Shown here piece by piece: positions 2,969-18,923 of a stretch of DNA of 64,000 nucleotides (positions are counted from its first letter, which is position 1; each line of letters begins with the position of its first letter). Source of the DNA: Flavobacteriaceae bacterium PS02337 (GTDB taxonomy: Bacteria > Bacteroidota > Bacteroidia > Flavobacteriales > Flavobacteriaceae); the NCBI GenBank assembly GCA_029959285.1, contig JASCOE010000003.1, forward strand, positions 372,001 to 436,000, given 5' to 3'. The translations under genes were made by a program, and so were the position numbers. The notes under the pieces are model-generated. The model was not told where the DNA came from and searched no databases. It was given only the letters and a program-made list of their open reading frames with translations.

Positions 2969-4327
2969 ATGAATAAGATATTGATTTGGTCTATTACTGC
3001 TGCACTGGCAGGTTTTCTTTTCGGTTTTGATACCGTAGTTATTTCTGGAGCTGATAAACAATTACAACAACTTTGGCATTCTTCTGATGCTTTTCATGGT
3101 TCAGTCGTTATGGCAATGGCATTATGGGGAACTGTAGTCGGTGCTATTTTCGGAGGAATTCCGACCAATAAAATTGGACGTAAAAAGACTTTGTTCTGGA
3201 TCGGAATCTTATATTTTATTTCAGCCGTTGGTGCCGCTTTTGCAAATAATCCTTTTGTTTTTGCTGCTTTCCGTTTTATTGGAGGTTTAGGAGTTGGTGC
3301 TTCTACAATTGCTGCTCCGGCTTATGTATCAGAAATTGCTCCTGCAGACAAACGCGGAAGATTAGTGGCTTTATATCAGTTTAATATTGTATTGGGTATT
3401 TTAATTGCTTTTATTTCAAATTACTTTTTAAAAGATATTGGCGAAAACGCTTGGAGATGGATGGTTGGTGTTCAGGTAATTCCGTCTTTTATTTACATAC
3501 TTTTTATTTTGACTATACCAGAAAGTCCAAGATGGTTATTGTCTAAAAACCGTGACGAAGAAGCCCGCAAAGTTTTACATAAAATTGACCCGTCTGCCCA
3601 TATCGCCGATCTTATCGATGATTCTCGCGAAAATGGCGTGACGAAACATGAAAATATCTTCATGAAAAAATACCGTTTTCCATTAATCTTAGCATTTTTA
3701 ATTGCCTTTTTTAATCAGTTTTCGGGGATTAATGCGTTCCTTTATTACGCGCCAAGAATTTTTGAAGAAGCAGGTTTAGGACAAAATACAGCCTTATTAA
3801 GCAGTATCGGAATTGGAGTTACCAATCTTATTTTCACCTTAATCGGTGTAGCGTTAATTGACAAATTAGGAAGAAAGTTGTTAATGTACATTGGTTCTGT
3901 TGGTTATATCATTTCACTCGGATTAGTATCGGCTTCTTTTTATTACAATTGGGGCGGTTTATCGGTTCCTATATTTCTATTCTTGTTTATTGCTTCGCAC
4001 GCTATAGGTCAAGGAGCCGTAATCTGGGTTTTCATTTCAGAAATTTTTCCGAATCACATTCGTGCATCCGGACAGGCTTTTGGAAGTTCAGTTCATTGGG
4101 TTTTGGCAGCGATAATTCCGTCATTAATTCCAATGTTGTTTTCAGAAATTGGAGCTGAAATTGTATTCCTTATTTTTACCATAATGATGGTATTGCAATT
4201 ATTATTTGTAATTTTTCTAATGCCAGAAACAAAAGGAATTTCTTTGGAAGTATTAAGTGGAACATTAACAAAAAAAAATATCAGAAAAAATGAAATCAAC
4301 GAAACAGCTGCCGCTCGCTCTTTATAG
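2969..4327 (+). CDS. MFS sugar porter, probable fructose importer
   Basis: Inner-membrane symporter of the sugar porter family, 452 residues with about 12 hydrophobic segments. Family signatures are visible: GFLFGFDTVVISG in helix 1, GRKKTL after helix 2, PESPRWLL before the central loop, a second GRK (DKLGRKLL) in the C-terminal half, and PETKG near the C-terminus. In known Bacteroides fructan loci the same gene position holds a fructose importer. That fits a pathway where GH32 enzymes release fructose in the periplasm and the PfkB kinase traps it in the cytoplasm. The last 38 bases overlap the start of the next gene, implying tight co-translation. Substrate is inferred from context. Confidence 0.9.
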   Translation: MNKILIWSITAALAGFLFGFDTVVISGADKQLQQLWHSSDAFHGSVVMAMALWGTVVGAIFGGIPTNKIGRKKTLFWIGILYFISAVGAAFANNPFVFAAFRFIGGLGVGASTIAAPAYVSEIAPADKRGRLVALYQFNIVLGILIAFISNYFLKDIGENAWRWMVGVQVIPSFIYILFILTIPESPRWLLSKNRDEEARKVLHKIDPSAHIADLIDDSRENGVTKHENIFMKKYRFPLILAFLIAFFNQFSGINAFLYYAPRIFEEAGLGQNTALLSSIGIGVTNLIFTLIGVALIDKLGRKLLMYIGSVGYIISLGLVSASFYYNWGGLSVPIFLFLFIASHAIGQGAVIWVFISEIFPNHIRASGQAFGSSVHWVLAAIIPSLIPMLFSEIGAEIVFLIFTIMMVLQLLFVIFLMPETKGISLEVLSGTLTKKNIRKNEINETAAARSL

Positions 4328-5903
4328 AGCTTTAGTATTGTCGATTGCTGGATGTATAACATTTTCAGCTTCGGCACAAACTAAGGTTTTGCCATCAAAT
4401 GCAAATGAAGAAAAGATGTATCGTCCAAATTTTCACTTTACACCAAAAAAAGGCTGGATGAATGATCCAAACGGAATGTTTTTCGCCAACGGATATTATC
4501 ATTTATTTTACCAATATTATCCAGATAAAAGTGTTTGGGGACCAATGCATTGGGGACATGCGACGAGTAGAGATTTAATAAAATGGGATGAACAGCCCAT
4601 TGCGATTTATCCTGATAAAGACAAATATATTTTTTCTGGAAGTGCTGTTGTTGATGTAAATAATACATCGGGTTTAGGAATTGGTAACAATGCACCAATT
4701 ATCGCAATTTATACTTTGCACGATATGACAAAGGAAGAAGAAGGAAAAATAGATGTGGAGCAGCAAGATATCGCTTATTCTAACGATAATGGTTTTACAT
4801 GGCAGAAATTTGAGGAAGGAAATCCTGTCGTGAAAAACCCTGGAATTAGAGATTTTCGTGATCCAAAAGTAACTTGGGATGAAACGCACAAACAATGGAT
4901 TATGGTTTTGGCAGCGCAGGACCGAGCACAGTTTTATAAATCATCAAATCTAAAAAACTGGGAATTTTTATCTGAGTTTGGAAAAAACATTGGAGCTCAC
5001 GGCGGCGTTTGGGAATGTCCGGATTTCTTTCAGATCAAAGTTGAAGGAACTAAGGAAACCAAATGGATTTTAATTCAAAACTTAAATCCTGGCGGACCAA
5101 ACGGAGGTTCTGGAGTACAATATTTTGTTGGAGATTTTGATGGAAAAACATTCAAACTTGATTCTGATTTTGCTAAAAGATTAGAAAATGAAAAAGCCGT
5201 TTGGGCAGATTACGGAAAAGATAATTACGCAGGAGTGACGTGGAATAATGTTCCAAGTGCAGACGGGCGAAGATTATTTATCGGATGGATGTCTAACTGG
5301 GAATATGCACAACAAGTTCCAACAACTTCTTGGAGAAGCAGTACCACAATTGCCCGAGAATTAAAGTTGGTAAAAAAGGGGAATTATTACAATTTAATAA
5401 GTAATCCAGTTAGAGAACTTGATTATTATATTACGGAAACTATTAGAACAAAAGCTTTAAAAGGAAAAGAGAATTATACTTTAGTTGAAAATGGAAAAGC
5501 AGATTTAACTCAAGCCATTGTAAGTTTAGAGTTGAAAAATTTAAAACCCGAAAATTACACGTTTGAGCTTTCCAATTCTGATGGAGAATCTTTAAAATTT
5601 GGATTAAATAATAAAGAAAATTATCTATTTGTTGATCGTTCAAAAGCAGGAAAAAATGATTTCTCGGACAAATTTGCGGCAACTATTAGTAAAGCTTTTT
5701 TAAATGGAAATCAAAAGGAAGCCACTTTCAAAATTATTTTAGATAAAACTTCAATTGAAATATTCTATAATAATGGCGAAAAAGTAATGACGGAAATCTT
5801 TTTCTTAGAAAAACCATTTACATCACTTTCAGTTTCTTCTAAAGAAAAAATCGAAGTCAATAATTTACTAATTCAAAAATTAGATGTTTTGAAAAGGAAT
5901 TAA
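4290..5903 (+). CDS. GH32 fructan hydrolase (first of two)
   Basis: Releases fructose from levan, inulin or sucrose-type fructans. The three GH32 motifs are intact: nucleophile Asp59 in WMNDPNG, stabiliser Asp191 in FRDP and acid/base Glu242 in WECPDF, in a five-bladed propeller followed by a beta-sandwich (about 375-537). The N-terminus is a signal peptide ending near SASAQ. Cys22 could be read as a lipobox, but its paralogue lacks the cysteine, so ordinary export is more likely. The start overlaps the transporter by 38 bases. The next in-frame Met would remove the signal peptide, so the overlap is probably real. Endo or exo action and linkage preference cannot be read from sequence. Confidence 0.93.
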   Translation: MKSTKQLPLALYRALVLSIAGCITFSASAQTKVLPSNANEEKMYRPNFHFTPKKGWMNDPNGMFFANGYYHLFYQYYPDKSVWGPMHWGHATSRDLIKWDEQPIAIYPDKDKYIFSGSAVVDVNNTSGLGIGNNAPIIAIYTLHDMTKEEEGKIDVEQQDIAYSNDNGFTWQKFEEGNPVVKNPGIRDFRDPKVTWDETHKQWIMVLAAQDRAQFYKSSNLKNWEFLSEFGKNIGAHGGVWECPDFFQIKVEGTKETKWILIQNLNPGGPNGGSGVQYFVGDFDGKTFKLDSDFAKRLENEKAVWADYGKDNYAGVTWNNVPSADGRRLFIGWMSNWEYAQQVPTTSWRSSTTIARELKLVKKGNYYNLISNPVRELDYYITETIRTKALKGKENYTLVENGKADLTQAIVSLELKNLKPENYTFELSNSDGESLKFGLNNKENYLFVDRSKAGKNDFSDKFAATISKAFLNGNQKEATFKIILDKTSIEIFYNNGEKVMTEIFFLEKPFTSLSVSSKEKIEVNNLLIQKLDVLKRN

Positions 5904-6044
5904 AAGAAACATCTAAATTATTTTCTTTTCGTTAGAAAATCATAAATCAGTCGAATAACCACTTGAAAGTGTAATGCTTTCCGACCTTTTATGCTCTTTT
6001 CTGAAAATTTACAGCTACTAATTATCAACCAAAAAAATATCAAA

Positions 6045-7652
6045 ATGAGATTAACCACATCACAATCATTTAGAATTTACAGTGCTACACTATTTCTTTT
6101 AGCAAGTACTGGTGTATCTTCTGTAATAGCACAAAACAAGCCAGTTGCAAGTATTACAGAAACAGAATTATACCGACCAAACTTTCATTTCACGCCAAAA
6201 AAAGGCTGGATGAATGATCCAAACGGAATGTTTTATGCCGACGGTTATTACCATTTATATTTTCAGCATTATCCAGAAAAAAATGTCTGGGGACCAATGC
6301 ACTGGGGACATGCAATTAGCAAAGACATGATAAAATGGGAAGAGCAGCCAATTGCCATTTATCCGGATAAAGAAAAATATATTTTTTCTGGAAGTGCCGT
6401 TGTCGATACACAAAATACTTCTGGTTTTGGAAAAGATGGTAAAGCGCCAATTGTGGCCATTTACACTTTGCACGATATGGAAAAAGGCAAAGACGGAAAA
6501 CTGGATACCGAACAGCAAGATATTGCCTATTCTACCGATGGCGGATTTACCTATAAGAAGTTTGACGCAGGAAATCCTGTTGTAAAAAATCCTGGAATTC
6601 GTGATTTTCGTGATCCAAAAGTTTCTTGGGACGAAGCTCGTAAACAATGGATAATGGTTGTCGCTGCTTCAGACCGAGATCATTTTTATGGTTCTAAAGA
6701 TTTAAAAAACTGGCAGTTTTTATCAGAATTTGGAAGAGATCTTGGAGCGCACGAAAGTGTTTGGGAATGTCCAGATTTCTTTCAAATTAAAGTTGAAGGA
6801 ACCAATGAAAAGAAATGGGTTTTATTGCAAAGTTTAGGTCAGGGAGCGGCAAACGGAGGTTCTGGAACACAATATTATGTGGGAGATTTTGATGGAAAAC
6901 AATTTACTGTAGATGCTAATTTTGAACAAAGAATAAAAAGAGAAAAAGCCGTTTGGATAGATTACGGAAAAGACAATTATGCTGGCGTAACATGGAATAA
7001 TATTCCAACTTCTAACGGGCGACGATTGTTTATTGGCTGGATGGTAAGTTTGGATTATGGCGGAAGTGTGCCAACAAATGCTTGGAGAAGCAGTATGACA
7101 ACGCCGCGTGAAATGCAATTAGTCAAAAAAGGAAATGATTACAGTTTAATTAGCAATCCGGTTAAGGAAATTAATAAATATGTTTCAAAAACTATTCAAA
7201 ACAAAACTTTAAAAGGAAAAGAGAAACTGGAACTTTTTAAAGCTGAAAAAATAGATTTAAGACAAGCCATTATCAGTTTTGACTTAAAAAACTTAAAGCA
7301 AGATACCTACAGTTTTACACTTTCAAATTCAATCGGCGAATCTTTAACTTTCGGATTAAATAACGCAGAAAACTACTTATTTGTAGATCGTACAAAAGCA
7401 GGGAAAATTGACTTTTCTGAAAAATTTGCTTCGATTGTGCATAAAGCAAAATTAGAAAAGAATCAAAAAGAGGCGACTTTTAAAGTGGTTCTCGACAAAA
7501 CTTCAATAGAAATATTTTACAACAATGGCGAAAAAGTAATGACCGAAATCTTTTTCCTAAACCAGCCATTTAACTCGATTTCAGCTTCTTCAAACCAAGG
7601 AATTGAAATTTCTAATCTTGTATTTAACCAACTATCTATAAACCAAAACTAA
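6045..7652 (+). CDS. GH32 fructan hydrolase (second of two)
   Basis: Paralogue of the preceding gene along its whole length, implying tandem duplication. From the chosen start it has 535 residues, a signal peptide ending near SVIAQ, nucleophile Asp58 (WMNDPNG), stabiliser Asp190 (FRDP) and acid/base Glu241 (WECPDF). An upstream ATG at 5991 would add 18 residues ahead of a normal signal peptide, so I prefer 6045. Loops around the acid/base differ from the first copy (HESVWEC against HGGVWEC, and QGAANGG against GGPNGG). That allows different linkage or chain-length preferences, but direction is unknown. It ends 6 bases before susC, so it is probably in one operon. Confidence 0.93.
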   Translation: MRLTTSQSFRIYSATLFLLASTGVSSVIAQNKPVASITETELYRPNFHFTPKKGWMNDPNGMFYADGYYHLYFQHYPEKNVWGPMHWGHAISKDMIKWEEQPIAIYPDKEKYIFSGSAVVDTQNTSGFGKDGKAPIVAIYTLHDMEKGKDGKLDTEQQDIAYSTDGGFTYKKFDAGNPVVKNPGIRDFRDPKVSWDEARKQWIMVVAASDRDHFYGSKDLKNWQFLSEFGRDLGAHESVWECPDFFQIKVEGTNEKKWVLLQSLGQGAANGGSGTQYYVGDFDGKQFTVDANFEQRIKREKAVWIDYGKDNYAGVTWNNIPTSNGRRLFIGWMVSLDYGGSVPTNAWRSSMTTPREMQLVKKGNDYSLISNPVKEINKYVSKTIQNKTLKGKEKLELFKAEKIDLRQAIISFDLKNLKQDTYSFTLSNSIGESLTFGLNNAENYLFVDRTKAGKIDFSEKFASIVHKAKLEKNQKEATFKVVLDKTSIEIFYNNGEKVMTEIFFLNQPFNSISASSNQGIEISNLVFNQLSINQN

Positions 7653-10600: not shown

Positions 10601-10763
10601 TTTGTTGAAGAAAATGAATATGGAAAGTTTCAGATTGTATATCAGCGGACAAAATTTATTGATTTTAGATGCTAAAAACTTTACTGGAGTTGATCCAGAA
10701 AATGCTGGATTTGGATATCCACAGCCAACCACTTTTACTGCTGGGCTTAATTTTACTTTATAA
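7659..10763 (+). CDS. SusC-type TonB-dependent outer-membrane transporter (fructan locus)
   Basis: Outer-membrane barrel that imports fructo-oligosaccharides together with the SusD lipoprotein encoded next. It has a signal peptide ending near LLMSAQ, a carboxypeptidase-regulatory-like domain (about 22-100), a TonB box region (LNEVVVTGY, 102-110), a plug domain with the family motif YVIDGMP, and a long beta-barrel ending in an aromatic/leucine C-terminus (AGLNFTL). Its 1034 residues are normal for SusC. Fructan specificity comes from its two GH32 neighbours and the fructose-type sensor. Confidence 0.95.
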   Translation: MKSKIIYFLFFFFPALLMSAQEIEIKGTVISSDDGMPLPGATVTIAGTNTSAATDFDGIFSFQNIASNATIVVSFIGYAPQSIPVNGQKTFNITLKVDNNQLNEVVVTGYSKQKKTDITGAVAVVSMKEVMKQPEPNPIKALQGRIAGVKVSSDGSPSGANTKVVIRGVGTLNNTDPLYVIDGMPTKSGLHELNPNDIESIQVLKDASSASIYGSRASNGVIIVTTKKGKEGKMRINFSTYTSLSSYSNKLDVMNANQFGQALWQANINDGLDPNSNNVRYQFDWANVNGKAQLNRVIIPEYLDAEKTLKSADTNWYDAVSQTGVAQSYDLSVSNGSDKGSYVFSLGYYGNEGVVKTTDFERISARMNGSYKYFDGRLVIGENFTLNRTNEVTDPGVLDPALRALPIIPIRTVDGIGWGGPVGGMNDRQNPVRLLEYNKDNKYDYLRLFGNAYADLEIIKNLHIKTSFGMDYGFYKKRTLQRSYKSGYLQNDQTSVTIDQSVSDKWTWTNTAIYSLNFGKSNLNLMAGTEMYKDTYDTTTLRKNDFLIETPDYMYPDAGTGESFTSGTSTVYSLLSYFGKADYEFDNRYLLSATIRRDGSSRFGKNNQFGTFPAVSGGWRISNENFIKDKITAISDLKLRAGWGQTGNQEISNTAVYSLYLATYAGGSPTWATSYGTAYDIAGNGNGLLPSGFIATQSGNDDLKWETTTQTNVGLDFGFFKQKLSGSIDYYIKKTEDILVLPAYLGVIGEGGNRWVNGASMENKGWEFSLGYQDETSFGLKYDVSANISANKNKITQLPDEVKNNYGGDGLNDNILGRPINSMYGYVTDGLFTTQDQVTNSPIQEGKGLGRIRYKDLNGDGQITDKDRTWIGNPNPGFQYGINLNLSYKNFDFTTFWEGTGNVDVINNTKYQTDFWSVDDVGSNKGTRLLNAWSVDNPNSTIPALTTVDRNAENRFSTYYVENGSYLKLRVLQLGYNLPKDLLKKMNMESFRLYISGQNLLILDAKNFTGVDPENAGFGYPQPTTFTAGLNFTL

Positions 10764-10779
10764 TCAAAGATTTAGAAAA

Positions 10780-12471
10780 ATGAAAAAAATACTATATATA
10801 ACAGGGTTTTTAGTGATGGCTTTATTCGCTTCCTGTTCCGATTTTTTAGAAAATAATCCTCGAGGCGTTTTATCAGAAGACGATATTGTAACGCCCGAAA
10901 CGATTGAAGGTTTTATGAATGCCGCTTATGCGCAGTTAGGAAACGATCATTACGATTCGCCTTATAGTTTGTGGCCTTTTGGTAATGTTCGTTCAGACGA
11001 TGCCTACAAAGGCGGAAGTGGCACAAATGATATTCAGGTTTTTCACTTTTTTGAAGTTTCCAATAACATTCGACCAGATTTTGGAGAACTAGATACTTTT
11101 TGGTACAACAGTTATGTTGGAGTTGGAAGAGCTAATAAAGCTTTGAAAGCTTTGGAACAAATCTCAGAAGCCGATTTTCCGTTGAAAAAAACACGTATTG
11201 CAGAAATGCGTTTTTTAAGAGGACATTTTTATTTTATGCTGAAAATCATGTTTAGAAATGTGCCTTATATTACAGAAGATATTCCGGTTGAAGAGTACAA
11301 AACGATTTCAAACGTAGCGCTTTCAAACGAAGAACTTTGGAATAAAATTGCAGAAGATTTTCAGGCTGCAGCCGATGTTTTACCAGAAACACAACCGCAA
11401 GTGGGGCGTGCGACTCAAAAAGCAGCGAATGCGTATTTAGCCAAAACGCGTTTGTATCAAGCGTATACACAGGATGATAATTTTAAAGTTACAGGAACCA
11501 ATGCAGCACATTTAGAGCAAGTAATTGCTGCGACAGATAAAGTGATTGGAAAAGCAACTTTGGAACCTGATTTTGCGAATAATTTTTTACCAGGAAGTTA
11601 CGAAAATGGTCAAGAATCGATCTTCTCTATTCAGTTTTCTGATAATGACGGAACGCTTTACGGAAGATTAAATTTCTCAGATGTGCTTTCAACTCCACAA
11701 GGTTTAGGATGTTGCGATTTTCATAAACCAAGTCAAAACTTAGTAAATGCTTTTAAAACAGGAGCAAATGGACTTCCGCAGTTTGATACCTACAACAATC
11801 AAGATTTTGATTATAAAAACAGAAATGCCAATACGGTCGATCCAAGATTGTATCATACGGTTGCAATGCCTGGTTTGCCTTATAAATATGATCCAGAATA
11901 TGTATATGTTGAAGCTTGGGTTCGTTCTCCAGGAACATACGGATATTTTGCTTCTTTAAAAGAAAACGTTGCGCCAAGCTGTAGTTGTTTTGTCAATATT
12001 GATCCGTTTTATGGAAATTCAAAAAATAGAATTCAAATTCGTTACGCCGACGTGATTTTAATGCGTGCCGAAGCTTTAATTGAATTAGGAAGACAAGCTG
12101 AAGCTTTGCCATTAATTAATGAAATCAGAAAAAGAGCCGCTCAAAGTACAGGAAGACTTCCGTATGCCAATAACTTTAAAGTTGATCTTTATGTTGACGG
12201 AACGAATTGCAACTGGACACAAGATTTTGCCCGTAAAGCAATGCGTTGGGAACGCAGATTAGAATTGGCAATGGAAGGAAGCCGCTTTTTTGATCTTGTT
12301 CGTTGGGGTGTTACAGATCAGGTTTTGAATCAGTTTTATACTGGAGAAAAAACAAAACGAACGTATTATCAAGATGCCTTTTTTGATGCGCAGAAAGAAG
12401 AATATTGCCCTATTCCTTTAAAACAAATCAATTTTAGCCAAGGAGTTTACAAACAAAATCCGGGTTATTAA
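10780..12471 (+). CDS. SusD-type surface glycan-binding lipoprotein (fructan locus)
   Basis: Cell-surface lipoprotein that caps the SusC barrel and captures oligosaccharides. A lipoprotein signal peptide ends at Cys19 (FASC-SDFLENNP), followed by TPR-like helices and the usual C-terminal RagB/SusD region with RWERRLELAMEGSRFFDLVRW. The reading frame stays open upstream to 10669 inside susC, but the ATG at 10780 gives a canonical lipoprotein start (563 residues) 16 bases after the susC stop. This locus has no SusE/SusF gene, unlike the other two here. Confidence 0.94.
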   Translation: MKKILYITGFLVMALFASCSDFLENNPRGVLSEDDIVTPETIEGFMNAAYAQLGNDHYDSPYSLWPFGNVRSDDAYKGGSGTNDIQVFHFFEVSNNIRPDFGELDTFWYNSYVGVGRANKALKALEQISEADFPLKKTRIAEMRFLRGHFYFMLKIMFRNVPYITEDIPVEEYKTISNVALSNEELWNKIAEDFQAAADVLPETQPQVGRATQKAANAYLAKTRLYQAYTQDDNFKVTGTNAAHLEQVIAATDKVIGKATLEPDFANNFLPGSYENGQESIFSIQFSDNDGTLYGRLNFSDVLSTPQGLGCCDFHKPSQNLVNAFKTGANGLPQFDTYNNQDFDYKNRNANTVDPRLYHTVAMPGLPYKYDPEYVYVEAWVRSPGTYGYFASLKENVAPSCSCFVNIDPFYGNSKNRIQIRYADVILMRAEALIELGRQAEALPLINEIRKRAAQSTGRLPYANNFKVDLYVDGTNCNWTQDFARKAMRWERRLELAMEGSRFFDLVRWGVTDQVLNQFYTGEKTKRTYYQDAFFDAQKEEYCPIPLKQINFSQGVYKQNPGY

Positions 12472-12526
12472 TAGTGCAAAAGAAATTTTATGTAGAAAAT
12501 ACCATTTGGTTGTAAGTAGTAATTGA

Positions 12527-12566
12527 TTCAAGGGCAAGCTGTATTTTAAGCTGCCCTTGAATTTTT
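12527..12566 (+). terminator. Terminator-like hairpin between susD and the sugar kinase
   Basis: The arms TTCAAGGGCAAGCT (12527-12540) and AGCTGCCCTTGAA (12549-12561) pair with one bulged base, and five T follow. It resembles an intrinsic terminator, yet it sits only 12 bases before the kinase ATG, leaving no room for a conventional promoter after it. It may act as a leaky terminator or an mRNA-stabilising stem. Confidence 0.7.
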
Positions 12567-12578
12567 AATATTAAAAAA

Positions 12579-13496
12579 ATGATTAAAAATAATAGTTTGA
12601 AGGCGGTGTGTTTTGGTGAGGTTTTATGGGATGTTTTCCCAACGCACAAGAAAATTGGTGGAGCGCCATTGAATGTTGCATTGCGCATGAACGCTTTAGG
12701 TGTAACTACATCGATGATAAGCCGAATTGGGAATGATGAAGCCGGAAATGAAATTCTTTCTTTTTTAAAAGAGAAAAATGTTAGTTCAGAGTTTATTCAA
12801 AAAGATGAGAACTATAAAACAGGAGTTGTAAATGTAATGATTAACGAAAAAGGAAATGCTTCTTACGATATCATGTATCCTTCTTCTTGGGACAAAGTAA
12901 TGCTTATTGATACTATTATTCGAGAGGTTTCTGAATCTGACGCTTTTATTTTTGGAAGTTTAATCTGCAGAGATGAAATCTCAAGATCAACTTTAATGAC
13001 TTTGCTTGAAAAAGCTAAATTCAAAGTTTTAGATGCCAATTTAAGAGCTCCGTATTATACAACTGAAGTACTTTTAGAATTAATGTCAAAAGCGGACTTT
13101 ATAAAACTTAATGATGAAGAATTATGGGAAGTAAGCCGAAACTTAAAATCGCCTTATAATTCTTTTGAACAGAATATTAAATTTATAGCAGAAAAAACGA
13201 AAACCAGTAAAATCTGTATTACAAAAGGAGCATTTGGTGCCGTTTTATACTACGAAGGAAAATATTATTACAATAGTGGGTACTTCATTCAAGTGGTTGA
13301 TACGGTTGGAGCGGGAGATTCTTTTTTAGCCACATTAATTTCAAGATTATTAAAAGGTAAATCTCCTCAAAAATCATTGAATTATGCTTGCGCTGTTGGA
13401 GCTTTAGTGGCTGGACAAGAAGGAGCAAACCCTAAATTATCAAATGATGAAATTAAAAAGTATATGATGCTTGAAAAAGAAAATACGGTTCAGTAA
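12579..13496 (+). CDS. PfkB-family carbohydrate kinase, probable fructokinase
   Basis: Cytoplasmic kinase expected to phosphorylate incoming fructose, the last step encoded by the fructan locus. The 305 residues include the N-terminal GGAPLNVA glycine pair that closes over the sugar and the C-terminal signature DTVGAGDSF with catalytic base Asp247 and the anion hole. It lacks a signal peptide. Known Bacteroides fructan loci carry a fructokinase in the same setting, and its length and motifs match that family better than ribokinase or phosphofructokinase. The leader is A-rich with no Shine-Dalgarno site, and a hairpin lies directly upstream. Confidence 0.9.
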   Translation: MIKNNSLKAVCFGEVLWDVFPTHKKIGGAPLNVALRMNALGVTTSMISRIGNDEAGNEILSFLKEKNVSSEFIQKDENYKTGVVNVMINEKGNASYDIMYPSSWDKVMLIDTIIREVSESDAFIFGSLICRDEISRSTLMTLLEKAKFKVLDANLRAPYYTTEVLLELMSKADFIKLNDEELWEVSRNLKSPYNSFEQNIKFIAEKTKTSKICITKGAFGAVLYYEGKYYYNSGYFIQVVDTVGAGDSFLATLISRLLKGKSPQKSLNYACAVGALVAGQEGANPKLSNDEIKKYMMLEKENTVQ

Positions 13497-13818
13497 TCTA
13501 CGATTAGATTTTTTCAATTTAGCGCAATTTTAAAAGAAAATGCAAAGTAATAATGGCTAAATGAAACAATTTGTACTAAAAATGAGACATGTTGGCTCAA
13601 TCGATTTAGTATATTTGTTTCAAGCCATTTTTTAATTTTAAAATGAATCGTTTCAAAATTCTGTCATACGATTATAAAATTGCTTTAAAAATGGATTCAC
13701 ATATTATACAGAAACAACCATTTAAAAATCCATATTTACGGTTCTTGACAAGTTAAAAACCGATTCCTGATTGTTTACAAATTACATTGCTTTTGAACTA
13801 TCTAAAAAACTAAAATAT
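13497..13818 (+). other. Intergenic region ahead of the redox operon, with a candidate promoter
   Basis: This 322-base AT-rich stretch holds a perfect TAnnTTTG element, TATATTTG at 13610-13617. A TTG lies at 13592-13594, but the 15-base spacing is shorter than the usual 17-23. It probably drives the operon beginning at 13819 independently of the fructan operon. Nothing else is convincing here; a 37-codon reading frame at 13643-13756 has no recognisable features. Confidence 0.45.
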
Positions 13819-15246
13819 ATGTCAGACTATGATTATTCTAGAAGAAAATTTTTAACCAATACTTTATTAGCATCAGCCGCTGCTGCCGTAGTTCCTGGGC
13901 TATTATTTTCAAATGAATTAAAAATACCTAGAGGAACTGCAGATAAAGTAAATCTTGCCTGTGTCGGAATAGGGAATCGCGGAGCAGATATAATTCGTGA
14001 ACTATACAATACAGGATTAGCAAATATTGTTGCACTCTGTGATGTTGATATGGAAGCGCCTCAAACTTTAGAAATATTAAAGCAATTTCCTAATGTGCCT
14101 CGATTTAAAGATTTCAGACAGATGTTTGATAAAATGGGAAATCAGATAGAAGCAGTTTGCATTGGTACTCCCGATTTTTCTCATTTTCCGATTACAATGA
14201 TGGCAATCAATCTTGGCATACATGTTTATGTAGAAAAGCCAATGGCACGTACTTTTAATGAAGTCGAACTGATGATGAAAGCGGCAAAAAAACATCCGAA
14301 AGTTGTAACCCAAATGGGAAATCAAGGACATTCTGAGGCTAATTATTTTCAGTTTAAAGCTTGGACAGATGCAGGAATTATAAAAGATGTAACTGCTATT
14401 ACTGCTCACATGAATTCGCCTAGACGCTGGCACGGTTGGGATCCTAAAATTAAATCGTTTCCACCAGCTGAACCTATACCAAGTACATTAGATTGGAATA
14501 TTTGGCAAATGCAAACCTATGGACATCAATTTAATAAAGAATTTGTAAACGGTCAATGGCGATGCTGGTTTGATTTTGGAATGGGAGCATTGGGAGATTG
14601 GGGAGCGCATATTTTGGATACAGCTCATCAGTTTTTAGATCTTGGACTTCCTTATGAAGTTGATCCAATAAAATTAGATGGACATAATGATTTTTTCTTT
14701 CCAATGTCGACAACGCTATCATTTAAATTTCCGAAAAGAGATACTAAACCGCCTGTTGAAATAAAATGGTACGATGGTGTTGATAATCTTCCGCCCATAC
14801 CTTCAGGTTATGGAGAACAAGGATTAGATCCGAATATACCACCGCCAAGCAATGGTGCTGTTTTACCAGCTAAATTGAATCCAGGTAAAATTATCTATAG
14901 TAAAGATTTGACTTTTAAAGGAGGTTCGCACGGAAGTACTTTGTCAATTATTCCCGAAGAGAAAGCAAAAGAAATGGCTTCACGCTTGCCTTTTGTTCCT
15001 GAAAGCACATCCAATCATTTTGCTAATTTTCTAAAAGCATGTAAAGGAGAAGAAAAAACACGTTCGCCTTTTGAAATTGCTGGACCTTTAAGCCAAGTTT
15101 TTTGCCTTGGAGTTTTAGCGCAATGGACTGGTGAAAAGATTGTTTTTGATAGAAAAAATAAAATAATCACCAGCAGTAAAAATGCGAATGAACTTCTTGT
15201 CGGACCGCCGCCGCGTAAAGAATGGGAGCAATTTTATAAAGTGTAA
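13819..15246 (+). CDS. Tat-exported Gfo/Idh/MocA oxidoreductase (first)
   Basis: NAD(P)-dependent sugar dehydrogenase fold predicted to act in the periplasm. A twin-arginine signal (YSRRKFLTN then an alanine-rich stretch) precedes the Rossmann motif GIGNRGADI and the family lysine motif EKPMA (Lys140). The C-terminal domain carries the GDWGAHILDTAHQ segment usual near the active site. The start at 13819 gives a normal Tat signal and 475 residues; an upstream TTG at 13771 would only add an unlikely extension. Such proteins in Bacteroidota include glycoside 3-dehydrogenases acting with DUF1080 hydrolases, and a DUF1080 gene closes this operon. The substrate is not known. Confidence 0.85.
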   Translation: MSDYDYSRRKFLTNTLLASAAAAVVPGLLFSNELKIPRGTADKVNLACVGIGNRGADIIRELYNTGLANIVALCDVDMEAPQTLEILKQFPNVPRFKDFRQMFDKMGNQIEAVCIGTPDFSHFPITMMAINLGIHVYVEKPMARTFNEVELMMKAAKKHPKVVTQMGNQGHSEANYFQFKAWTDAGIIKDVTAITAHMNSPRRWHGWDPKIKSFPPAEPIPSTLDWNIWQMQTYGHQFNKEFVNGQWRCWFDFGMGALGDWGAHILDTAHQFLDLGLPYEVDPIKLDGHNDFFFPMSTTLSFKFPKRDTKPPVEIKWYDGVDNLPPIPSGYGEQGLDPNIPPPSNGAVLPAKLNPGKIIYSKDLTFKGGSHGSTLSIIPEEKAKEMASRLPFVPESTSNHFANFLKACKGEEKTRSPFEIAGPLSQVFCLGVLAQWTGEKIVFDRKNKIITSSKNANELLVGPPPRKEWEQFYKV

Positions 15247-15291
15247 TTTTTTTGTAACACTTGAATAAAAAATCAAATTAATTATTTACTG

Positions 15292-16311
15292 GTGACAAAT
15301 ATTCTATTAAATAAATCATTGATCTTAATTGTTTTTCTAGTCAGCTTGACCTCATTTTGTCCTGATGAATGGAATAGATACACTATTACTGGTAAAGCTC
15401 AAGGTACAACCTATAGTATTGTATATTATGGAAAAGACAGTATCGTAACAAAGAAATTGATTGATGAAAAATTAATTGAGTTAGACAGTTCGCTTTCATT
15501 ATACAAAAGCTATTCAAAAATAAATCAGTTTAATAATTCAGAAAAAGGTATCGTATTAGATGATCATTTACTTGCGGTCGTTAAAAAATCAATAATCGTA
15601 AATAAAGAAACTAAAGGACTTTTTGATATAACAGTTTTTCCTTTAGTAGAAGCTTGGGGTTTTGGCATTGCGAAAACAAAAAGCATTCCAGATAATTCTG
15701 TAATACTTTCACTTCTAAACTGCGTAAATACCGAATTATTAGAATTGAAAGGAAATTATCTTTCTAAGAAAAAGCCATGCGTAAAAATGGATCTCGATGG
15801 TATAGCCCAAGGTTATAGTGTTGACATTCTAGCAGATTTACTAGAAAAATATCACATCAATAATTATGTTGTAGAATTAGGAGGCGAAATAAGGGTAAAG
15901 GGAACGAAACAGCCTTCTAGAGAAAAAATGAAAATTGGAATTGAATCGCCTTCAGAAGATGAATTTGATCTTCAGCCATTTAATGAAATTATCAATTTAA
16001 ATAAAGGAGCTGTCACAACATCTGGAAGCTATAGAAAATATTATGAAAGTAATGGACATAAGATTACACACATTATCAATCCAAAGACTGGTTATCCGCA
16101 AAATAACGAGCTTATTAGTGTGACGGTATTTGCAGAAGATGCTATAACTGCTGATGCTTACGATAATGCGCTCATGCTGATGGGACTTGAAAAAGCGCTT
16201 GATTTTGTAGAAAAAAGAAAAAATATTGCTGCTTATTTTATTTATAGAAATAATTCTGGAACAGTTTCTAGAAAAGCGAGCAGTGCTTTTTTAAAATTAA
16301 AAAATGACTAA
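15292..16311 (+). CDS. apbE: ApbE, FAD:protein FMN transferase
   Basis: Attaches FMN covalently to a Thr or Ser of exported redox proteins, using FAD and Mg. An N-terminal hydrophobic segment targets it across the membrane; Cys near residue 23 may be a lipid site, but the lipobox is poor. Family motifs are in order: KMDLDGIAQGYSVD, GGEIRVKG, TTSGSYRKYY, HIINPKTGYP and DAITADAYDNALMLMG. The start is GTG at 15292, 45 bases after the preceding gene, and I see no better ATG. The gene is sandwiched between two Tat-exported oxidoreductases, which suggests its acceptor is encoded here. The next protein carries a candidate acceptor motif. Confidence 0.92.
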   Translation: MTNILLNKSLILIVFLVSLTSFCPDEWNRYTITGKAQGTTYSIVYYGKDSIVTKKLIDEKLIELDSSLSLYKSYSKINQFNNSEKGIVLDDHLLAVVKKSIIVNKETKGLFDITVFPLVEAWGFGIAKTKSIPDNSVILSLLNCVNTELLELKGNYLSKKKPCVKMDLDGIAQGYSVDILADLLEKYHINNYVVELGGEIRVKGTKQPSREKMKIGIESPSEDEFDLQPFNEIINLNKGAVTTSGSYRKYYESNGHKITHIINPKTGYPQNNELISVTVFAEDAITADAYDNALMLMGLEKALDFVEKRKNIAAYFIYRNNSGTVSRKASSAFLKLKND

Positions 16312-16329
16312 CTATTATTAATAAACCAC

Positions 16330-17544
16330 ATGAAACGCAGACATTTTATACGCCAGACAGGCTTATTTACAACAGGCTTACTACTGCATCAGCAGATTTT
16401 ACAGGCAGCAGTTTTAAATGGGAAAAAAAAGAATATTTCTGTTGCTGTTATCGGATGTGGAGACAGAGGAAACGGATTAAGTTTTGTTCTTAAAGAGATG
16501 CCTGATGATTTTACGCTAAAGACAGTCTGTGATGTTTTGCCATTTAGACTCGATCAGGCAAAAAATATAAACAAAACAAGTAATTTAAATTACGAATCTG
16601 ATTACCGTAAAGTCTTGGATGACAAAAAAATAGATGCAGTAATTATTGCCGTGCCATTATATCTTCATTACGAAATTGCATCAGCTGCAATTAAAGCAGG
16701 AAAACATGTCTATCTCGAAAAAACAATGACTTATGATGCAGATCAGGCGCTTGCTTTGGTTAATTTAATGAAACAGCATCCAAAACAAGTACTGCAAGTT
16801 GGGCATCAATACAGATACACGCCACTTTATTTTAAAGTAAAAGAGATGATTGACAAAGGTTACCTAGGCAAGGTTATACAAATTGATTGTCGTTGGGATC
16901 GTAATGCGAGTTGGCGAAGACCAGTTCCTTCAGGCTGTACTGACAGGCAGATAAACTGGCGCATGTATAAAGAATATTCGGGAGGTTTACCAGCTGAATT
17001 GCTATCTCATCAGGTTGATTTTATTAACTGGGCATTCAATACGCATCCAGACGAAATACTTGGAACTGGTGGAATTGATTATTATAAAGATGGAAGAGAA
17101 ACTTTTGACAACGTTCAAACTATTCTGCGATACAGCAAAGAAGGTATGATTGGAAATTTTGGCGCAACTTGCAGTAATGCAAAAGACGATTATTTATTTA
17201 AGATAAAAGGAACAAAAGGTACTATCCAATTATTGGTAGATGAGGGTGTTTTCTTTCCCGAAAAAAATACAAGAAAAGAACTTGAAGTTGTTGATGGTGT
17301 TACGGGCGCCACAAAAATTGAATGGAATAACGATGGAGGAATTCCAATTTTGAAAGAGAAATCGAAAGACGGAAGCTGGTACGCGCTTCAGGAATTTTAT
17401 AAAACGATTAATGAAGGAAGTTTACCAGCATCAAATGTTTTTACAGGCGCTACTACCGCTTTCTGTGTACATTTAATGAATAAATCACTATATGAAGATT
17501 CCATTCAAAAATGGAAACCTGAATTTAATCTTACTAATATCTAA
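16330..17544 (+). CDS. Tat-exported Gfo/Idh/MocA oxidoreductase (second), with flavinylation-like motif
   Basis: Predicted periplasmic NAD(P)-binding sugar dehydrogenase of 404 residues. It begins with a Tat-type signal (MKRRHFIRQTG), then GCGDRGNG in the Rossmann fold, EKTM with Lys131, and the ELLSHQVDFINW active-site helix. Near the C-terminus residues 322-328 read DGVTGAT, which fits the Dxx(s/t)GAT consensus where ApbE attaches FMN; Thr328 would be the acceptor. A second, weaker copy (NVFTGAT) follows about 50 residues later. I know of no flavinylated member of this family, so flavinylation is inference from motif and from apbE directly upstream (18-base gap). The motif could be coincidental. 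Confidence 0.85.
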   Translation: MKRRHFIRQTGLFTTGLLLHQQILQAAVLNGKKKNISVAVIGCGDRGNGLSFVLKEMPDDFTLKTVCDVLPFRLDQAKNINKTSNLNYESDYRKVLDDKKIDAVIIAVPLYLHYEIASAAIKAGKHVYLEKTMTYDADQALALVNLMKQHPKQVLQVGHQYRYTPLYFKVKEMIDKGYLGKVIQIDCRWDRNASWRRPVPSGCTDRQINWRMYKEYSGGLPAELLSHQVDFINWAFNTHPDEILGTGGIDYYKDGRETFDNVQTILRYSKEGMIGNFGATCSNAKDDYLFKIKGTKGTIQLLVDEGVFFPEKNTRKELEVVDGVTGATKIEWNNDGGIPILKEKSKDGSWYALQEFYKTINEGSLPASNVFTGATTAFCVHLMNKSLYEDSIQKWKPEFNLTNI

Positions 17545-17555
17545 ACCAACATAGA

Positions 17556-18923
17556 ATGAAAAAAATTGCAACAATCATTTTTTTATTTACAGGAATAATT
17601 TGCAATGCGCAGTCGGGTAATTGGCAGTCATTGTTTGACGGAAAAACACTAAATGGATGGAAACAGCTCACAGGTTCAGCTTCTTATAGCGTAGAAAACG
17701 GAATGATCGTTGGAACTACAGTCGATAAATCGCCAAATTCTTTTCTGGCATCTGATAAACGTATAACGGGAGATTTTGTATTGGAAATGGAAACCATGAT
17801 GACAGATACAATTACTAATTCTGGTGTACAGTTTAAAAGTAATTTTGACCCAAAAGCCAATGACGGAAAAGGAAAAGTATATGGTTATCAATATGATGTA
17901 GATCCGACTTCAAGAAAATGGAGCGGCGGAATTTATGATGAAGGAAGAAGAGAATGGCTTTATCCTGTATCAAACAATCCAAAAGGTCAAATACTTTTTA
18001 CTCCAAACGTTTTTCACAAAGTCCGCATAGAATGTATTGGTCAGAAGGTAAAAACATGGCTTGACGATCAGCCAGTTTCTTTTTTAGTTGATTCCTTGTC
18101 GGCAAACGAAGGAATTATTGCACTTCAAGTTCATGCTATCGGCAAACCTCAAGATGCAGGAGTTAAAATTTATTGGAAGAATATCAGACTTCAAACAAAA
18201 AATATAAAAGAACTTCCTTTTCCAAAAGGAGTTTATGTGGCGGGTCTAATTCCAAATAAATTAACGCCATACGAGCAAGAGAATGGTTGGAAGTTATTGT
18301 TTGATGGAAAAACCACAAACGGATGGATTGGCGCTCATAAAAATACTTTTCCCGAAAAAGGCTGGAGATTAAAAGATGGCATCTTGCAAGTTATGGCATC
18401 AAATGGTGATGAATCTACTAACGGAGGAGATATTGTAACTCAAAAGGAATTTGCAGCATTTGATTTATCATTTGATTTTAAACTAACTGACGGAGCCAAT
18501 AGCGGTATAAAATATTTTGTAACATTAAATGAGCAGAGTAAAGGTTCTGCAATAGGTTTAGAATATCAATTACTTGACGATGATCTTCATCCAGACGCAA
18601 AATTGGGTAGAGATGGCAATCGTACACTTGGTTCTCTTTATGATTTAATTAAAGCAAAAAAAATAAAACGCTTTTTCCGTAAACCTGGAAATTGGAATAC
18701 AGGAAGAGTAATTGTATATCCTAATAATCATGTTGAACATTATCTAAATGGTGTAAAAGTATTAGAATATGAAAGAGGTTCACAAGCCTTTCGTGATTTG
18801 GTTGCGCAAAGTAAATACAAAATCTGGCCAGATTTTGGAGAAGCACCAAAAGGACATATTTTAATACAAGATCATGGTAACGAAGTAAGTTTTAGAAGTA
18901 TTAAAATCAAAGAATTAAAATAA
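17556..18923 (+). CDS. Tandem DUF1080 (3-keto-glycoside hydrolase-like) protein
   Basis: Exported protein with two DUF1080 domains, concanavalin-like beta-sandwiches. After a signal peptide ending near ICNAQ come domain 1 (about 22-212, opening WQSLFDGKTLNGWK) and domain 2 (about 240-455, opening WKLLFDGKTTNGWI). The shared FDGKTxNGW opening marks the repeat. The family has been renamed after members that hydrolyse 3-keto-glycosides made by Gfo/Idh/MocA dehydrogenases, which matches the two such genes upstream. The start is 11 bases after the previous gene and a terminator follows, so it is last in a four-gene operon. Which domain is catalytic cannot be told from sequence. Confidence 0.85.
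   Translation: MKKIATIIFLFTGIICNAQSGNWQSLFDGKTLNGWKQLTGSASYSVENGMIVGTTVDKSPNSFLASDKRITGDFVLEMETMMTDTITNSGVQFKSNFDPKANDGKGKVYGYQYDVDPTSRKWSGGIYDEGRREWLYPVSNNPKGQILFTPNVFHKVRIECIGQKVKTWLDDQPVSFLVDSLSANEGIIALQVHAIGKPQDAGVKIYWKNIRLQTKNIKELPFPKGVYVAGLIPNKLTPYEQENGWKLLFDGKTTNGWIGAHKNTFPEKGWRLKDGILQVMASNGDESTNGGDIVTQKEFAAFDLSFDFKLTDGANSGIKYFVTLNEQSKGSAIGLEYQLLDDDLHPDAKLGRDGNRTLGSLYDLIKAKKIKRFFRKPGNWNTGRVIVYPNNHVEHYLNGVKVLEYERGSQAFRDLVAQSKYKIWPDFGEAPKGHILIQDHGNEVSFRSIKIKELK

Follow-up and report, generated by a model that had tools for sequence, protein, structure and literature searches.

The FAD:protein FMN transferase ApbE acts outside the cytosol. Its known target is a seven-residue motif, D-x-x-[S/T]-G-A-[S/T], and these seven residues are enough for labelling according to the accessible text of PMC12052999. 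Substrates reported in the available portions of PMC8238504, PMC11334425 and PMC12052999 are NqrB and NqrC, Rnf subunits, fumarate and urocanate reductases, NosR, PceC, and proteins of the DUF2271, DUF3570, Flavodoxin_4 and FMN_red families. No report of a flavinylated Gfo protein was found among open-licence papers of the ApbE and flavinylation literature, and the words 'Gfo' and 'sugar' are absent from the texts of PMC8238504 and PMC11334425, so far as these are accessible. A Rossmann-fold, NAD-type dehydrogenase as an ApbE substrate would be new.

Gene organization and the encoded proteins

The window (the whole stretch of DNA analysed, 64,000 nucleotides of Flavobacteriaceae bacterium PS02337) carries at 15292-17544 two plus-strand genes, apbE followed by gfo2, with 18 bases between them. 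The sequence-only reading had placed the string DGVTGAT at residues 322-328 of the oxidoreductase and apbE directly upstream, and both were found again. The pair belongs to a sugar operon on the plus strand (10669-18923) that encodes, in order, SusD (PF07980), a PfkB kinase, Gfo1, ApbE, Gfo2 and a DUF1080 protein. The features of the module are as follows.

13771..15246, + strand: gfo1, second Gfo/Idh/MocA protein with a twin-arginine leader (PF01408, PF19051; NCBIfam BT_2158_fam 268 bits, cut-off 750)
15292..16311, + strand: apbE, FAD:protein FMN transferase, the proposed modifying enzyme (PF02424, 263 bits)
16330..17544, + strand: gfo2, Gfo/Idh/MocA oxidoreductase with a twin-arginine leader, the proposed flavinylated protein (PF01408, PF22725, PF02894)
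17293..17313, + strand: codons of DGVTGAT, residues 322-328 of Gfo2, proposed flavinylation site with acceptor Thr328
17434..17454, + strand: codons of NVFTGAT, residues 369-375 of Gfo2, rejected as a site
17556..18923, + strand: DUF1080 protein of the 3-keto-disaccharide hydrolase family, probably a partner in the pathway (PF06439 in two stretches, 263 bits)

On the 5' side of the operon a sugar transporter and a SusC-like receptor were identified by reading, as were two tandem, similar GH32-like genes (4290-7652) 5' of the SusC/SusD-like pair. Together with the PfkB kinase, the two GH32-like genes point to sucrose or fructan as the sugar handled in this host; among the neighbour clusters listed, a sucrose/fructan-type neighbour is not conserved beside the Gfo2 module in most relatives. 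Within the 80 named loci, which are the best 80 of 213 relatives, gfo2 has apbE no more than four genes away in 48, DUF1080 in 61 and a second Gfo gene in 49.

ApbE has a GTG start codon and 339 aa. Its residues S244, H260 and D288 align with conserved positions of the solved ApbE 6nxi, the active-site triad of the enzyme being Ser/His/Asp (PMC12052999, accessible text), and by sequence the protein has both the ApbE domain and the active-site residues of an FAD:protein FMN transferase. Gfo2 (404 aa) has the N-terminal Rossmann domain and the alpha/beta C-terminal domain of Gfo/Idh/MocA oxidoreductases; a Pfam search at E 0.001 returned only Gfo domains and no FMN_bind domain. K131, H227 and D230 are each present in 128 of 128 aligned Gfo2 rows, with the lysine motif reading EKT, not EKP; K131 and H227 we take to be the catalytic Lys of the EKP-type motif and the His of the C-terminal domain in this family. 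The protein start, MKRRHFIRQTG..., resembles a twin-arginine leader as judged by eye, and across 110 homologues each of its residues R3, R4 and F6 shows conservation of 97% or more. The closest named relatives, among the matches listed, come from Flavobacterium and one Flavobacteriaceae isolate (94-96% identity).

Conservation and setting of the DGVTGAT loop

Conservation was scored over 128 Gfo2 rows at about 38-96% identity to the window protein, 126 of them distinct since L010 = L219 and L012 = L220 are identical proteins that were both kept; L119 and L128 were left out as duplicates. The rows comprise the 80 named loci (the best 80 of 213 relatives in one scan) and others from wider samples, namely 29 listed loci of a family sample (50 of 299 genomes matched), a phylum sample, L208 and a genus sample. 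The motif lies at the same column throughout and D322, G323, V324 and A327 are invariant (128/128). Residue 325 is Thr in 81 rows, Ser in 39 and Ala in 8, residue 326 is Gly in 126 of 128, and residue 328 is Thr in 117 and Ser in 11 (Thr 115 and Ser 11 when counted over distinct proteins). The strings are DGVTGAT (71), DGVSGAT (37), DGVTGAS (9), DGVAGAT (8) and DGVSSAT, DGVTSAS and DGVSGAS (1 each), such that the D-x-x-[S/T]-G-A-[S/T] consensus is complete in 118 rows, while 10 deviate through Ala at the fourth place (8) or Ser at the fifth (2). Mean conservation over the seven motif columns is 93% vs 67% for residues 32-401, and of the three columns on each side five stand at 31-65%, residue 321 (95%) being the exception. 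Among the other ORFs of the fetched loci (1337 ORFs, 505,512 aa), 8 contain D..[ST]GA[ST], in one case as an NqrB site; against this background a motif fixed in D, A and a hydroxyl acceptor in 128 of 128 rows goes well beyond chance, despite the earlier caution that so short a string could arise in that way.

In the AlphaFold model the motif loop is the sole interior segment of Gfo2 with pLDDT below 50 (model positions 293-303, corresponding to residues 320-330), and residues 320-330 have no secondary structure. Because the motif sits in this unpacked loop, its conservation is not explained by packing and, the loop being predicted to be unstructured, burial of Thr328 is not indicated by the model. 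The weaker second motif that had been pointed out, NVFTGAT, was rejected as a site: its last residue, 375, is Thr in only 45 of 110 homologues, and it sits at the beginning of a well-ordered helix in the AlphaFold model.

ApbE groups and the acceptor residue

The proposal that the motif would be conserved only beside apbE fails, since D322 is present in all 128 rows and apbE is near in 48 of the 80 named loci (the best 80 of 213). Taken to the letter, the earlier condition on a motif equally common in members without apbE would refute flavinylation; ApbE is able to act in trans, however, which makes adjacency too coarse a test. With the Pfam model an ApbE was detected somewhere in 49 of 49 genomes tested and, with the window ApbE as query, in 62 of 62 (a set that takes in four Flavobacterium without a Gfo2 match) and 31 of 31. 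Across 395 Bacteroidota genomes the Gfo2 profile (E 1e-50) matches 45 and ApbE is present in 260; lists compared by reading place ApbE in 45 of 45 genomes with a Gfo2-profile match vs 215 of the 350 others. Relatedness being ignored, Fisher p values for this co-occurrence are 1.6e-9 for the 45 genomes and 7e-4 for the 17 genomes of the motif-bearing subfamily alone.

In the ApbE tree, type I enzymes, whether linked to Gfo2 or not (support 100/98), and NQR-type enzymes (98/94) are joined as sisters (100/100), and ApbE adjoining DUF2271 proteins form a separate group (100/99). The window ApbE is type I. NQR-type ApbE was examined in eight contexts, of which L199, L201, L214 and L229 are nqr operons whereas L200, L202, L203 and L213 have other surroundings. 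A GAT string is found in NqrB of L201 and L229 and in NqrC of L199, L214 and L229, so that the partners ending in Thr read VDGFSGAT and VDAYTGAT for NqrB and VDALAGAT (twice) and VDAISGAT for NqrC. Off-consensus strings that still end in Thr were seen in L199 NqrB (VDAISGET, 1285-2508) and L201 NqrC (VDGISGGT, 3023-3748), and no such site string was found in L214 NqrB (10941-12215); these departures from consensus in some NqrB and NqrC bear on how strict the flavinylation motif is. In genome G032, NqrC with VDALAGAT (L214) co-occurs with Gfo2 carrying DGVAGAT (L126), both with Ala at the fourth place. ApbE scoring at least 500 bits occurs in 4 of 180 Flavobacterium genomes, directly adjoining Gfo2 each time; the next-best ApbE score 288 bits, and most of these lower-scoring enzymes lie outside the tree. 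A simple history would be duplication of an NQR-type ApbE, with one copy transferred to a place beside Gfo2 as its dedicated enzyme.

In several Pedobacter genomes (L176-L178, L217, L218) type I apbE was seen in another cluster, beside a motif-free Gfo protein of ~440 aa, a finding that counts against flavinylation of Gfo2. That cluster also encodes a protein of ~320 aa (FGE-sulfatase domain, scanned in L176); after apbE, L176-L178 and L217 have one of ~310 aa (AP_endonuc_2, scanned in L177).

The identity of residue 328 tracks the ApbE group of the genome and not adjacency of apbE. All 117 rows with Thr328 come from genomes with the NQR/type I group, that is, with an ApbE scoring at least 146 bits against the window ApbE or one directly linked to Gfo2. 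In all 11 genomes with Ser328, an ApbE has as neighbours a PepSY-type protein and a DUF2271 protein with [TS]GAS at its end (L204, L206, L207, L209, L210, L182 and L224-L228). The DUF2271 proteins were recognised by their similarity to that of L211, which Pfam confirmed; the PepSY neighbour was scored in L224-L228 and assigned by eye in the other loci. Nine of the 11 are without the NQR/type I group; the two with both groups are G312, which has a second, TGAT-bearing Gfo2 near type I apbE (L208), and G752, which has an nqr operon (L229). Some Thr328 genomes, that of the window included (L211), also have a DUF2271-type ApbE, and the presence of this type therefore does not force Ser. DUF3570 partners of ApbE read TSAS and SSAS. 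It was also seen that the Gfo2 string of L037 (genome G306), DGVTSAS, resembles DHYTSAS of an apbE-adjoining DUF3570 protein in the same genome (L232).

The line between ApbE types, 140 bits, was set after the scores were seen; rows with adjacent apbE (all at least 229 bits) were scored as Thr-type directly, and within the subfamily at 38-45% identity most genomes were typed by score alone, with eight ApbE and that of G752 placed in the tree. L222, at first sight a further Ser case, was dropped before tree building as it represents the same genome as L018 (G876 and G302 agree in their ApbE coordinates). The tree shows 6 changes of acceptor and 5 changes in whether NQR/type I ApbE is present, and of 6 independent pairs 4 to 5 are concordant and none opposed; the median sign-test p of 0.0625 is the lowest attainable with so few independent events. 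A Fisher test of acceptor against ApbE group gives 2.7e-13 on 129 rows including L222, a value that ignores relatedness and is not relied on. The hydroxyl at residue 328 is read as the target of whichever ApbE the genome holds. The earlier suggestion of flavinylation at this residue thus gains from the covariation of acceptor and ApbE group, and loses adjacency as its test.

Proposed mechanism, rival readings and known systems

The reading that best joins these computed observations (the motif and its conservation, the unpacked loop, the gene module and the acceptor/ApbE covariation) is that Gfo2 is an exported dehydrogenase of the NAD(P)-dependent Gfo/Idh/MocA family that receives FMN from ApbE on residue 328, a reading to which we assign a probability of about 0.72. 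Covalent FMN on residue 328 is likely, judged from the sequence comparisons, whereas function as a periplasmic sugar dehydrogenase with an NADH-to-FMN exit is plausible at about even odds, as is oxidation of a glycoside at C3, suggested by the DUF1080 neighbour. Tat export implies folding in the cytosol together with the cofactor. Gfo2 would fold there with its nicotinamide cofactor and exit in folded form by the Tat route, after which a periplasmic ApbE would attach FMN through a phosphoester bond to Thr328 (Ser in some relatives) in an exposed loop. Its reaction would be the oxidation of a glycoside, probably at position C3. Hydride on tightly held NADH would go first to the tethered FMN and from there to a respiratory acceptor; the FMN, carried on a flexible loop, could reach the bound NADH and then the respiratory partner. 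Cleavage of the 3-keto product would fall to the DUF1080 protein, whose family has been proposed to split 3-keto sugars (PMC9007349, accessible portion). Among the neighbour clusters listed for the named loci, no conserved electron-transfer partner was found beside Gfo2.

It is unlikely that the operon ApbE instead serves another protein, or flavin handling only, and that DGVTGAT is a structural or substrate loop which happens to resemble the consensus. This would fit with ApbE-like proteins that can be FAD pyrophosphatases (PMC4767422, in the part available) and with more distant Gfo proteins. All 13 distant Gfo loci first returned (L134-L146; 28-37% identity) have apbE close by (seen in 11 of them, and for L134 and L144 by way of L147 and L157), and none of their Gfo proteins contains D..[ST]GA[ST]; the idea that the motif follows apbE-Gfo pairing consequently fails outside the motif-bearing subfamily. 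In the variable insert that matches the position of DGVTGAT in Gfo2, other fixed strings are found in distant Gfo proteins, most of them next to apbE: nine have IPIGGA[ST]W (L147, L152-L159) and 13 have IAL[LV]ANAT (L161-L163, L165, L187-L191, L193-L196), while both GGA[ST] and ANAT strings are absent from L148-L151, L164, L197 and L198, with no comparable string at all in L148-L150. These strings are no more than leads: either they may represent off-consensus, degenerate ApbE sites, or the pairing of apbE with Gfo has another cause. Against a structural or substrate loop in Gfo2 itself stand the unpacked state of the loop in the AlphaFold model, the match between the conserved residues and those that ApbE reads, and the Thr/Ser choice at 328 following ApbE group, which a structural role leaves unexplained; moreover, no other conserved [ST]GA[ST] protein lies near Gfo2 among the neighbour clusters listed.

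Flavinylated Gfo2 could also run in the opposite direction, as a reductase or electron acceptor in which electrons pass from the respiratory chain through FMN to a sugar or keto-sugar. The direction of electron flow is not readable from sequence, and in the fumarate and urocanate reductases known to be modified by ApbE electrons flow inward (PMC8238504, as far as accessible); this arrangement is nevertheless quite unlikely, because DUF1080 is near in 61 of the 80 named loci (best 80 of 213) and the 3-keto-sugar substrates proposed for its family need prior oxidation (PMC9007349, accessible portion), and because the best solved match of Gfo2 is levoglucosan dehydrogenase.

Some related clusters with such Gfo/apbE pairs encode candidate redox proteins. 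In L162 (3374-5425) and L165 (8121-10136) the pair has a neighbour that combines 4Fe-4S with two CCG domains, a protein also recognised by eye in L187-L191, and L164 (5053-6897) has a cytochrome c3/c7-like protein beside the pair; these hint at possible electron partners. Large D[AT]VSGAT proteins were seen less than about 10 kb from apbE in L165 (193-3492), L187 (7679-10900) and L188 (12355-14979), and the similar large protein of L162 has no D[AT]VSGAT string.

If the flavinylated-dehydrogenase reading is correct, the tethered FMN would solve an open problem of exported NAD-dependent dehydrogenases, whose nicotinamide cofactor must somehow be re-oxidised in the periplasm although exchange with the cytosol is closed to it. 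Gfo2 would also represent a class of ApbE substrate that is widespread and does not belong to the flavin-binding folds. This suggests a new route for taking electrons from sugars outside the cytoplasm. Thanks to the Thr/Ser switch, a single pair of proteins would also allow a direct test of substrate preference among ApbE paralogues. A wider and more tentative extension, which we think rather doubtful, is that many Tat-exported Gfo/Idh/MocA proteins of Bacteroidota are NAD plus covalent FMN enzymes feeding periplasmic sugar electrons to respiration, that the non-canonical subfamilies use IPIGGA[ST]W or IAL[LV]ANAT acceptors with their own ApbE lineages, and that ApbE groups differ in Thr/Ser preference, with substrates changing their acceptor whenever a different group becomes the available one.

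Of the known systems, NqrC/NqrB and FMN_bind-type substrates share with Gfo2 the same seven-residue site and the same ApbE group, and NqrB VDGFSGAT and NqrC VDALAGAT of related genomes are nearly the Gfo2 string VDGV[STA]GAT; NqrC and RnfG, however, have the FMN_bind domain, whereas the host fold in Gfo2 is the Rossmann fold of Gfo/Idh/MocA. Levoglucosan dehydrogenase and glucose-fructose oxidoreductase have 16-24% identity to Gfo2, and we know of no covalent FMN in either. The glycoside 3-dehydrogenases of the BT2158/BT2159 type are Gfo proteins with a DUF1080 partner, as here, and Gfo1 reaches the 268 bits to BT_2158_fam given above, but Gfo2 is far below the NCBIfam cut-offs (BT_2158_fam 72 vs 750 bits, BT_2159_fam 35 vs 650 bits). 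DUF2271 and DUF3570 proteins were found as ApbE substrates by the same logic and shown to be so by co-expression (PMC8238504, accessible text); their acceptor is a Ser, matching the Gfo2 proteins that have Ser328, although their families are unrelated to Gfo2 and their ApbE falls here in a separate group. In Flavodoxin_4 and FMN_red proteins, as in Gfo2, the motif occupies an insert or a tail of what is already a redox enzyme, encoded near apbE, a case predicted with AlphaFold and then shown (PMC11334425, accessible text), but those folds already bind flavin whereas the Gfo fold binds NAD(P).
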